A stretch of DNA of 64,000 nt, taken from NCBI RefSeq assembly GCF_034044635.1, contig NZ_JAXCLX010000001.1:1488001-1552000 (forward strand), written 5' to 3'. How positions within the stretch are numbered: the stretch's first letter is position 1; the number at the start of each line of letters is the position of its first letter. The notes below the pieces were generated by a model. It did no database searches. It had not been told where the DNA came from and saw only the letters and a program-made list of their open reading frames with translations. The DNA comes from Dongia rigui (GTDB lineage Bacteria; Pseudomonadota; Alphaproteobacteria; Dongiales; Dongiaceae). Made by a program: the position numbers and the translations under genes. Of this stretch, positions 32,733 to 35,875 are shown one piece after another.

Positions 32733-33371
32733 TTAAGAACCCTGCCGACGGAAGGTGAGGTTGAAGCGGAGATTGCCGGTGAGCGGATGATCCGCCGATT
32801 TGAGCGGGGCGATACCGTGAAAGCGCAGCCGGGACGGACCGCCCCAGACGACGACATCGCCATGGTAGAGTGCATAACGCCGGGTCTTGTCGCCGCGCGC
32901 CAAGCCGCCCCACAGGAATGTGGCGGGGACGCCGAGGGAGATGGAAACGATGGGATGCGCAAAATCGCCCTCGTCCCGGTCCTGGTGCAAGGTCAGCCTT
33001 GTTCCGGGGGTGTAGCGGTTGACCAGGCAGACATCCGGATTGAACTGGGCATAGCCGGCGGCCTGCGCCGCTTCCCGCCCGAGATCGAGGAAGGAAGACG
33101 GCATCGCCGGCCAGGCCCGACCCGTGTCGGGATCAACCGCGTCATAGCGATAGCCGCGCCGGTCCGAGACCCAGCCATAGGCGCCGCAATTGGTCATCGC
33201 GACCGACATGCGAAAGCCGCCCGGCGTCACCAGATGGCGAAAGGGTGCCGCCTTTGCCACCGCCTCGATCGCCGCGATGAGCGGCACGGCCTTCTCCAGC
33301 GCAAAGCCGCGCAGGAGCCAGGCGCCGTCGTCGAGCTGTTCGGTGCTGTCGGAGAAAAGGTCCTGGATCAT
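32733..33371 (-). CDS. alkB: DNA oxidative demethylase AlkB
   Basis: A 212-residue Fe(II)/2-oxoglutarate dioxygenase that removes 1-methyladenine and 3-methylcytosine damage. Iron ligands His129 and Asp131 (LTLHQDRDE) and His185 (RLRFHGIAPL) are present, with the 2-oxoglutarate-binding Arg202 in NLRFNLTFR and substrate-loop MTNCGAYGWVSDRRGYRY (in part), a bacterial AlkB hallmark. Its ATG overlaps the stop of the oxygenase gene (ATGA), making it third in the ada operon. Confidence 0.95.
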   Translation of the reverse strand: MIQDLFSDSTEQLDDGAWLLRGFALEKAVPLIAAIEAVAKAAPFRHLVTPGGFRMSVAMTNCGAYGWVSDRRGYRYDAVDPDTGRAWPAMPSSFLDLGREAAQAAGYAQFNPDVCLVNRYTPGTRLTLHQDRDEGDFAHPIVSISLGVPATFLWGGLARGDKTRRYALYHGDVVVWGGPSRLRFHGIAPLKSADHPLTGNLRFNLTFRRQGS

Positions 33372-34057
33372 GTCGCGTCGTGAAAAATGATGCCCATCGT
33401 ATAACGTTGCCCGGCGGTGACACGGCTCACCCCATGGCGCAGGTTGACGCGATAGGTGCCGCGCGTACCCGCCACCGGCCGATGATGCACGGCAAAGAGC
33501 ACGGCGTCACCCTTTTGCAGCGGCACGACCATCGGCCTGGATTGCTGGCGCGGGCGCTGTTCAGTCAGCACGAAGTCGCCGCCCTCGAAATCGGCACCGG
33601 GTTGCGACAGCAGGACCGCGATCTGCAGCGGAAAGGCAAGCGCACCATATAGGTCCTGGTGCAGGCAATTATAGTCGCCAGGGTTGTAGCGCAGGATGAG
33701 CGGCGTCGGCCGCACCTGCCCGGCCTGGTGGCATTGCCCGAGGAAATCGGCATGGGTTTCCGGATAGCGCAGACCCAGCCCCATCGCCGCGTTCCAGCGG
33801 TTGGCGATGGGAACCAGCTGGGCATAGAGCGTCGCCCTCTGTTGCGCAATGAGCGGCGGCAGCGGATAGCTGAAGTATTTGTATTCGCCGCGGCCAAAGC
33901 CATGCCGCTCCATCACCACGCGGCTGCGATAATGCCGCTCATCGTCATAGCCGGCGATGAGGGCGGCGCAATCTGCCGCCGCCAGGAAACCAGGCAGCAC
34001 GGCATGGCCGTCGGAATCGAGCGCAGTGCCGACCGCCTGCCAGTCAATGCGCTTCAT
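33368..34057 (-). CDS. 2OG-Fe(II) oxygenase, Oxygenase-NA type (DNA repair-associated)
   Basis: A 229-residue dioxygenase of the family described as acting on damaged nucleic acid (Oxygenase-NA). The iron motif His133-Gln-Asp135 in CLHQDLYG and a distal [21 protein letters not shown] (in part) are visible. The ATG at 34057 overlaps the TGA of ada, and its own TGA overlaps the ATG of alkB, so it is coupled on both sides. Activity of this family is not firmly established; position between two alkylation-repair genes supports a repair role. Confidence 0.88.
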
Positions 34058-34797
34058 GAAGCCCACTCTCGTGCCAGCAGCGCGCGCTTGCGTGCGACAC
34101 CCCAGCGATAACCCGTGAGCGCGCCATTGCTGCCGATGACACGGTGGCAGGGAATGGCGACGGCGATCGGATTGGCACCGCAGGCCCGTGCCACGGCCCG
34201 CACCGCGCGCGGCCGGCCGATGGCGGCGGCAAGTTCGCTATAGCTTGCGGTGCTGCCAGCCGGGATCGCCAGCAATGCCTGCCACACCCTGCGCTGGAAG
34301 GGCGTGCCTTGCGGATCGAGCCGCCCCATCGCCGTGCCCGCTGGATCGGCCAGCAAGGCCAGCGCCAGCGCCAGCGATGCCGAACCAAGCGTCTCAACCA
34401 GCTGCGCTTTCGGAAAACGCTGCTGCAGGTCCTCAATCAACGCGGCTTTGTCATCGCCCAGGGTCAAGGCACAGATGCCATTGTCGCTCTCAGCCACCAG
34501 CAAGATGCCAAGATCGATCTGTGCCGTCGCATAGCGCGTCACTGCCCGCAGCAAATCCGGCTTGCACCGTTTGCAGGGGCGAAAGCCGGCAGCCTCGGCC
34601 GCCGCCGCATGGTCGTGAAAGGCGACATTCTCCGGGCGCGCCGGTCGGGCCTTGCAGCCCGGCCGGCAATAGACGCCGCTGGTCTTGACGGAATAGAAGA
34701 AACGGCCATCGGCCGTGGCATCGCGCGCCACGACAGCGGCCCAGCGCGGATCGTTGAGGGTCGCTGCAGCGCGATCTGTCTTTTCGGTCCTGGTCAT
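34054..34797 (-). CDS. ada: Ada-type methyltransferase lacking the AraC domain
   Basis: A 247-residue two-domain protein. The N-terminal zinc/methylphosphotriester domain carries Cys44, Cys48, Cys75 and Cys78, with the spacing of Cys38, 42, 69 and 72 in E. coli Ada. The C-terminal O6-alkylguanine transferase has Cys217 in AIPCHRVIG. In E. coli Ada an AraC-type HTH of about 100 residues separates them; here CKRCKPD joins almost directly to [18 protein letters not shown]. So both methyl acceptors are kept and the DNA-binding activator part is gone. It heads the ada/Oxygenase-NA/alkB operon. Confidence 0.93.
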
Positions 34798-34864
34798 CGC
34801 TCGTCCTTTCAGTCGCGAAGGTGATGGACCTTAATCTGGCGAACGGGCGATCGACACGCACTCC

Positions 34865-34906
34865 GGTTCTTGTGCTGGGGTTCTTGTGCGGGGGCTCTTG
34901 CGCTGG
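34865..34906. repeat. Three 14-bp tandem repeats before ada
   Basis: Units GGTTCTTGTGCTGG, GGTTCTTGTGCGGG and GGCTCTTGCGCTGG abut at 34865-34878, 34879-34892 and 34893-34906 in the 163-bp spacer between ada and the divergent LysR gene. They could be protein-binding iterons controlling either gene, or simple slippage repeats. Confidence 0.75.
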
Positions 34907-34960: not shown

Positions 34961-35875
34961 ATGGACAGGATCGATGCGATGCGCGTCTTCGTGACGGCAC
35001 TCGATGAAGGCAGTCTTGCGGGGGCGGGCCGTAAGCTCGGCCATTCGGCGGCGGCTGTCACGCGTGCCATCGGTTTCCTGGAAAGCCATGTCGGGACGCC
35101 GCTGCTGCACCGCACCACACGTTCCATTCGCCTCAGCGAAGCGGGGGAGCGCTATGCCGCCGCCTGCCGCCGCGTGCTGTCTGAACTCGACGAGGCCGAT
35201 CTGCTGGCATCCGGCGAAGGTGCCGCGCCACGCGGGCTCCTCACACTGACCGGTCCGCTGTCCAGCGGCGGAACGGTGCTGCGCCCAGTGCTCGATGCGT
35301 TCTTGGACGCACATCCGGAGATCCGCGCGCGGCTCCATCTGATGGACCGGAAAGTGTCGCTGATCGAGGAAGGCATCGACGTGGCACTGCGCATCGCGCA
35401 TCTGCCGGATTCGAGTTTGATCGCGATCCGGCTCGGCGAGGTGCGGCGGGTCGTGGCGGCATCGCCTGCCTATTTGCAGGGCCGCCCCAGGATCCGATTG
35501 CCCAAAGATCTGGCCGACCATCAATGCATCGCCATGACGGTGTTCGGCGCCGACAATTGGGCCTTTCCGCAAGGGAGGCCAGGGCGGAAGGCTGAAAGCA
35601 TCGATATCGCCCCCCGCCTCGTGGTCAACACGGTCGAGGCGGCGGTGGCCTCCGCCGTCGAAGGGCATGGATTGACACGGGTCTTTTCCTACCAGGTCGC
35701 CGAGGAGGTCCGCGCCGGCCGGCTCGTCCATGTGCTGGTCGATCCGCCGGAAGCGGCCCTGCCGGTGCATCTCCTGACACCGGAGGGCCGCCTCGGCGTT
35801 CCCAAAGTGCGCGCCTTCTTCGACTTCGCCGTGCCCCGGCTGAAGGCGGATCTGGCGCGTATGGCAAAGCTCTGA
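34961..35875 (+). CDS. LysR-family regulator
   Basis: A 304-residue LTTR of the single-letter 'MDRIDAMRVFVTALDEGSLA' class: N-terminal helix-turn-helix (GRKLGHSAAAVTRAIGFLES), then an effector domain with RIAHLPDSSLIAIRLGEVRR (in part). It is divergent from ada and convergent with the tautomerase-SDR pair, 9 bases away. Regulators of this class often control neighbouring short oxidoreductase genes, so the SDR at 36122 is a candidate target, although the layout is not the usual divergent one. Confidence 0.93.
   Translation: MDRIDAMRVFVTALDEGSLAGAGRKLGHSAAAVTRAIGFLESHVGTPLLHRTTRSIRLSEAGERYAAACRRVLSELDEADLLASGEGAAPRGLLTLTGPLSSGGTVLRPVLDAFLDAHPEIRARLHLMDRKVSLIEEGIDVALRIAHLPDSSLIAIRLGEVRRVVAASPAYLQGRPRIRLPKDLADHQCIAMTVFGADNWAFPQGRPGRKAESIDIAPRLVVNTVEAAVASAVEGHGLTRVFSYQVAEEVRAGRLVHVLVDPPEAALPVHLLTPEGRLGVPKVRAFFDFAVPRLKADLARMAKL

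Follow-up and report, generated by a model that had tools for sequence, protein, structure and literature searches.

An Ada protein lacking the helix-turn-helix in an ada-Oxygenase-NA-alkB operon, and a candidate Zn-less regulator encoded elsewhere in the genome

The Zn domain of Ada is the textbook case of DNA repair and chemical sensing combined in one domain. In Bacillus, the Zn domain and the helix-turn-helix (HTH) are held together in AdaA, and the transferase stands alone as AdaB. For Caulobacter, Kamat et al. 2024 (PMC10957082) describe the parts of N-Ada as split between two proteins. Cada1 (CCNA_00746) has the A-box domain and a transferase and shares its operon with a 2OG dioxygenase gene; Cada2 (CCNA_03845) has the B-box HTH and a transferase without the Zn domain. 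In that study, cada2 alone was required for induction and the deletion of cada1 had no effect; Cada2 was activated by methylation of its PCHR cysteine, and in its operator a B-box GCAA and an X-box CGG are separated by 3 bp. The HTH-less architecture is thus already known from Cada1. Among the papers listed by literature searches, no other dealt with the Caulobacter Cada proteins.

In the window, i.e., the whole 64,000-nucleotide stretch of DNA analysed here, three genes lie on the minus strand: ada (34054..34797, 247 aa), the gene of an Oxygenase-NA (PF09859) 2OG-Fe(II) dioxygenase (33368..34057, 229 aa; Pfam 5e-85), and alkB (32733..33371, 212 aa). The initial annotation had described this order with two ATGA overlaps, and the open reading frames and profiles bore it out at both the ada/Oxygenase-NA and the Oxygenase-NA/alkB junctions. 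The ATG of Oxygenase-NA is at 34057, with an alternative GTG start at 34066. The alkB product scored 340.7 bits with PRK15401, above the cut-off of 267, and 181.4 with the shorter TIGR00568, under its cut-off of 231.05.

The ORF, Pfam, and alignment indicated that the window Ada is composed of a Zn domain and an O6-alkylguanine transferase and lacks the HTH. Pfam placed Ada_Zn_binding at residues 18-81 (5e-31; 34555..34746, minus strand), Methyltransf_1N at residues 88-126 (5e-4, at the cut-off), and DNA_binding_1 at residues 166-244 (1e-35), and no HTH profile was matched at E 0.001. The transferase part, carrying the PCHR cysteine Cys217, covers residues 86-244 (34066..34542, minus strand) and matched 1sfe with an E of 1e-46. 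When the window Ada was aligned with E. coli Ada (L298) and a full-length Ada of the same family (L146), a single block was missing. This block corresponds to A77-G184 of E. coli Ada, 108 residues containing the AraC HTH, and is absent after window residue 82 (junction residues 82-83, 34549..34554, minus strand). Cys44/48/75/78 and Cys217 were aligned to E. coli 38/42/69/72 and 321, and the Cys78-Cys217 gap was 139 residues vs 249 in E. coli. The intact Zn cysteines and Cys217, the gap lengths, and the absence of an HTH of about 100 residues had all been claimed earlier and were confirmed in this alignment. Judged from the sequences, the loss of the HTH from the window Ada is real. The classical-Ada profile NCBIfam PRK15435 gave a score of 269.8, under the cut-off of 345. 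R51 and R77 of the window Ada occupy the positions of R45 and R71 of E. coli Ada, which contact the A-box (PMC4437013). The transferase part of the AlphaFold model was poor (mean pLDDT 68.6) and the model was unused. Among plasmid records, none covered 80% of the window Ada in one place.

The search for HTH-less homologues and a conserved gene order suggested in the initial annotation yielded six genomes with this Ada architecture, the window's own (G000) and, at 49-73% identity, G005, G007, G222, G756, and G030. G756 (L034) is an alphaproteobacterial MAG, and L033 and G005 (coordinates same as G757) are apparently one genome. The ada-Oxygenase-NA-alkB order was found in five of the six; in G030, ada was followed by Oxygenase-NA, and alkB was not found within the 12 kb examined. 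Within the window's family, a search with an E-value limit gave HTH-less Ada in 3/17 genomes (G000, G005, and G007). With E-value limits on the searches, the counts for the class and the phylum are minimum numbers for HTH-less as well as Zn-only Ada: HTH-less Ada was present in at least 5 of 385 genomes of the class (G000, G005, G007, G222, and G030) and at least 2 of 398 genomes of the phylum sample (G000 and G005). From a contig scan, the best 80 of 552 Ada loci were taken, a sample biased toward the window Ada as the query. The Zn domain and transferase were in one frame in 75 of these best 80; two of the 75 were without the HTH, one (L037) had a shortened gap, and 72 were full length, a call based on a Zn-transferase gap of 90 residues or more and not on a match to an HTH profile. 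The Ada with the shortened gap is that of Massilia psychrophila (L037:3188-4876), in which the AraC HTH lacks its second half.

For the three pairs of the window genus, dN/dS was 0.08-0.19 in the Zn domain vs 0.19-0.31 in the transferase, with synonymous sites near saturation, and identity was 73-83% in the Zn domain vs 54-66% in the transferase. The order was reversed in the G222-G756 pair (Zn part 70%, transferase 77% identity). By these measures, purifying selection acts on both halves of the window Ada, the Zn domain included. The initial annotation had considered that a sequencing error might have deleted the HTH; such an error, or an assembly join, was ruled out by the architecture shared among six genomes. 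It is barely credible that the window ada is an artefact of assembly or a decaying pseudogene, since the same architecture recurs in six genomes with open frames and dN/dS well below 1, and no support for either was found.

In the tree, the window-genus trio of HTH-less Ada had a support of 100 and the G222-G756 pair a support of 97. The hypothesis that the HTH was lost once gave an AU value of 0.65 in the Ada-domain tree (G030 left out) and 0.244 in the Oxygenase-NA tree (G030 in the tree, outside the tested group). Such a common origin is neither shown nor rejected, and one to three losses are therefore possible on these trees.

The Zn domain was also encountered alone. Among the Zn domains listed, at least three belonged to Zn-only genes. 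That of G379 (L294, G379:C61) encodes 87 aa from the ATG, without HTH or transferase; the gene has an ATGA overlap with Oxygenase-NA, is followed by alkB, and is preceded by the promoter box described below. The Oxygenase-NA gene of G379 is split into two frames by an internal stop codon. The stand-alone Zn genes of G096 (L291, G096:C14) and G203 (L295, G203:C1) encode 79 and 80 residues when read from possible start codons, and neither Oxygenase-NA nor alkB was found within the 13 and 12 kb examined around them. The Ada Zn domain folds alone, as the solved structure of E. coli N-Ada10 (1adn) demonstrates. It is also able to repair by itself. The residues equivalent to E. coli R45 and R71 were invariant in the two alignments examined. 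The retention of the Zn domain without the HTH, and even alone, suggests selection for phosphotriester repair itself, which is hard to tell apart from signalling in E. coli.

The Oxygenase-NA of the window matched the PF09859 profile and the HxD...H...R motif with intact catalytic residues (H133, D135, H208, and R218), which we take from the motif to be the iron and 2OG ligands. H133, H208, and R218 were present in 35/35 aligned sequences, and D135 in 29/35. The six copies without D135 (L075, L079, L085, L090, L094, and L107) are located directly behind full-length ada, with another copy having the Asp in the same locus; the Asp-less copies are possibly non-catalytic paralogues. The Oxygenase-NA model had a pLDDT of 94.4, and its top structural match was the prolyl hydroxylase 4j25 (Z 16.5, rmsd 3.2, 174 aligned); AlkB was in the Foldseek list at 5.6e-7. 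The predicted fold is accordingly described as prolyl-hydroxylase-like, and a shared fold shows no substrate. No solved structure matched Oxygenase-NA by sequence at E 0.01, and a literature search on Oxygenase-NA, DUF2086, and PF09859 gave no related paper, judged by title. An action of PF09859 on damaged DNA is stated in the Pfam description line alone. Among the best 80 of 552 loci, Oxygenase-NA was directly behind ada at 2/2 HTH-less and 31/72 full-length loci, and alkB came next at the two HTH-less and five full-length loci. With these 31 occurrences and the intact catalytic residues, the earlier argument from gene context for the middle enzyme was a fair one.

The initial annotation had allowed for an HTH protein, adjacent or elsewhere in the genome, that completes a split Ada. 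Beside ada, the sole HTH neighbour checked was a LysR gene, and the candidates lie elsewhere. Two such proteins were found in the genome: a Zn-less HTH-transferase (G000:C1:1418431) and an AdaA-AlkA fusion (G000:C3:643755) with Zn, HTH_18, AlkA_N, and glycosylase domains. An Ogt-like transferase gene is situated behind the fusion gene (G000:C3). The window Ada and the fusion account for the two Ada Zn domains of the genome, and Zn, HTH, and transferase therefore occur there in three different pairings.

The Zn-less HTH-transferase was present in 9/9 genomes with HTH-less (6) or Zn-only (3) Ada vs 5/21 genomes with full-length Ada (Fisher 1.4e-4, uncorrected for kinship, the nine including three genomes of one genus). 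The table excludes G284, which has no full-length Ada match, and G758 (L037). Among the full-length-Ada genomes, it was found in 2/18 outside the window's family and 3/3 inside. In 17/17 HTH-transferases of the window's family, RVYER occupies the position of RLHD of Cada2 and PCHR is intact; in that of the window genome, the two arginines are 46 residues apart, the same as the R68-R114 spacing of Cada2. RLHD was found in the HTH-transferases of G222, G756, G030, G379, G096, and G203, the G756 contig ending before the PCHR. The RLHD group was separate in the tree (100), and the RVYER group was placed among full-length Ada with weak support (81-92); the union of both groups was not rejected (AU 0.249).

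Promoter comparison revealed an operator-like box, ACAAGAACCGGAGTGCG, 59 bp before the ada ATG (34857..34873, minus strand), which differs from the consensus GCAAGNNNCGGA by a single mismatch in the B-box (ACAAG). The B-box half is present in three tandem 14-bp copies, GCGCAAGAGCCCCC, GCACAAGAACCCCA, and GCACAAGAACCGGA (34862..34903, minus strand), and this row of RCAAG copies in 14-bp steps ends in the ada box. Among six other ada promoters, those of G005 and G756 each carried one further RCAAG copy, differently spaced, and no further copy was present in the others. The box GCAAG-N3-CGGA was exact before 16/17 HTH-transferase genes of the family (controls 1, 0, and 2 of 17), and 6/6 HTH-less ada genes were preceded by it, three exactly and the other three, the window ada included, with one mismatch (composition controls 0, 1, and 1 of 6). 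If GCAAG is read as the B-box, the core fits the B- and X-boxes already published. Within one mismatch, the box was also located before 66/73 full-length ada outside the family, 43 of them exact (controls 8, 8, and 5 of 73), and before 3/3 full-length ada of the family. It preceded 1/3 Zn-only genes, 1/5 distant RLHD cada2 genes, and 0/10 adaA-alkA genes. These promoter counts exclude L037 (half HTH) and L039, L078, L080, and L088 (Zn not in frame with the transferase). Since the box is also found before full-length ada, it is a general Ada-type operator, wider than Cada2, and the Zn-less protein is not singled out as its reader. A weight matrix built from the HTH-transferase promoters gave p values of 0.011-0.065 for the six ada promoters, 0/6 below 0.01, with a null that contained the sites; the matrix had learned the TAG tail of the family, and the control-backed counts given above were used in its place. 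A sigma-70 consensus scan did not find a promoter.

A longer 17-bp form, RCAAGNNNCGGANNGCG, had four copies in the window genome, a count that is not independent, the pattern having been drawn from these promoters; the reversed pattern occurred twice. Three of the four sites precede genes (the HTH-transferase gene, the window ada, and, at 55 bp, a DUF1203 gene), and the fourth is located within a frame. The box 55 bp before the ATG of the DUF1203 gene (G000:C2:376158; L220:1659-2207) reads GCAAGCGCCGGATAGCG, and the pairing of DUF1203 and box was repeated in G003 (L238). The DUF1203 gene is a candidate for addition to the regulon.

We consider it probable, at roughly 0.7, that the window Ada is a Cada1-type repair unit without a transcriptional role and that the Zn-less HTH-transferase induces the operon. 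The window Ada would perform a double suicide repair, accepting methyl groups from methylphosphotriesters on Cys44 and from O6-methylguanine on Cys217, and we infer that its Zn domain still repairs phosphotriesters. The Zn-less HTH-transferase would bind the box before ada, and its PCHR cysteine would take a methyl group and thereby activate the protein, as shown experimentally for Caulobacter Cada2 (PMC10957082). If activation proceeds through this PCHR, operon induction would follow O6-alkylation, not phosphotriester repair, and the HTH would be dispensable in the repair protein. Several observations count against this reading. The window box has the mismatch ACAA, and the regulator lacks the RLHD of Cada2. 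The full-length-Ada genomes inside the family all have the Zn-less regulator too, none of the six matrix p values was below 0.01, and few RLHD cada2 and Zn-only genes are preceded by the box. Between G222 and G756 the Zn part has a lower identity than the transferase, and in Massilia psychrophila (L037), with half of the HTH lost, the Zn-less regulator was not found in the genome.

The A-box core ATT was found at -8..-6 of the box in 51/66 full-length ada promoters elsewhere with the box and in 3/3 of the family, but in 0/16 HTH-transferase promoters with the box. It was present in 0/3 HTH-less ada promoters of the window genus and absent from the ada promoter of G030 and the Zn-only gene of G379. 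The HTH-less ada promoters of G222 and G756 (2/2) have kept it at perfect spacing, GAATTCGACC-GCAAG. Overall, the A-box was found in 2/7 HTH-less and Zn-only vs 54/69 full-length promoters (Fisher p 0.012), and within the family in 0/3 HTH-less vs 3/3 full-length promoters (p 0.10). The retention in G222 and G756 counts against a pure-repair reading, which leaves the A-box unexplained. It would be expected if Ada worked as two proteins, the HTH-less Ada reading the A-box via its methylated Zn domain and the HTH-transferase sitting on the B-box, and the invariant equivalents of R45 and R71, which are A-box contacts in E. coli (PMC4437013), point the same way. However, neither the window genus (0/3) nor G030 has an A-box, and in Caulobacter the deletion of cada1 leaves induction unaffected (PMC10957082), and we regard a two-protein Ada as quite unlikely. 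The initial annotation had left the choice between a pure repair unit and another way of signalling; the repair unit is the better option, and other signalling is unsupported in the window genus, with the A-box gone and, in Caulobacter, the cada1 deletion without effect (PMC10957082).

The AdaA-AlkA fusion, joining Zn and HTH, might alternatively sense phosphotriesters and activate the window operon, as a split Ada resembling that of Bacillus. The fusion is found in all three window-genus genomes with HTH-less Ada and also in G030. Nevertheless, none of its own genes has the box, the A-box is missing from the window promoter, and G222, a 99% complete genome, has the HTH-less operon with no further Ada Zn domain, all of which makes such control unlikely. 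A conserved stretch, CATGTCCGAAAACCGCGAGC, lies before adaA-alkA in L140, L141, and L142, is unlike the ada box by eye, and is possibly the AdaA operator. Control of ada by the divergent LysR regulator (34961..35875, plus strand) is very improbable: the two genes are head-to-head in the window and in G005 (88% identity), but in G007 its relative (82%) and ada are about 2.4 kb apart, and the 12.0, 7.0, and 12.0 kb examined of G222, G756, and G030, whose ada promoters have the box, yielded none.

Beyond the repair-unit reading of the window Ada, we tentatively propose a reciprocal domain loss in the window's family, a history that we would sooner doubt than accept. One Ada lineage would have lost the Zn sensor and become a regulator (RVYER, not Cada2), and another would have lost the HTH and become a repair enzyme, with its promoter losing the A-box. 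Sensing would thereby have shifted, independently of the Cada2 path, from phosphotriesters to O6-alkylguanine, and in other lineages the freed Zn domain would have been reduced to a separate protein roughly 80-90 residues long.

Where the Zn and transferase parts align, the window Ada is 51% identical to E. coli Ada (b2213), and the two have the same catalytic cysteines and the same ada-alkB order; E. coli Ada, however, contains the HTH and is an activator of its own promoter, and E. coli has no Oxygenase-NA gene between ada and alkB. As in Bacillus AdaA/AdaB, the Ada functions are split over two proteins, but the split point differs in the window genome. Set beside Cada1 (PMC10957082), the window Ada likewise has Zn and O6-transferase parts without the HTH and a 2OG-Fe dioxygenase in the operon, and the separate HTH-transferase regulator of Caulobacter has a candidate counterpart in the window genome. 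Of the promoter features looked for in a Cada1-type gene (GCAA, CGG, and no A-box), the window ada promoter has ACAA, with one mismatch, and the CGG box, and it has no A-box. The points of difference from Cada1 are an operon with two dioxygenases, Oxygenase-NA and AlkB, a regulator candidate bearing RVYER in place of RLHD, and the additional AdaA-AlkA fusion. Cada2 (PMC10957082) resembles the window HTH-transferase in its HTH and transferase, PCHR, 46-residue arginine spacing, GCAA/CGG box, and lack of Zn; the window protein differs by its RVYER and its place among full-length Ada in the tree. The variant features of the window system are thus a different candidate regulator, the absent A-box in the window genus, and an operon with two dioxygenases.
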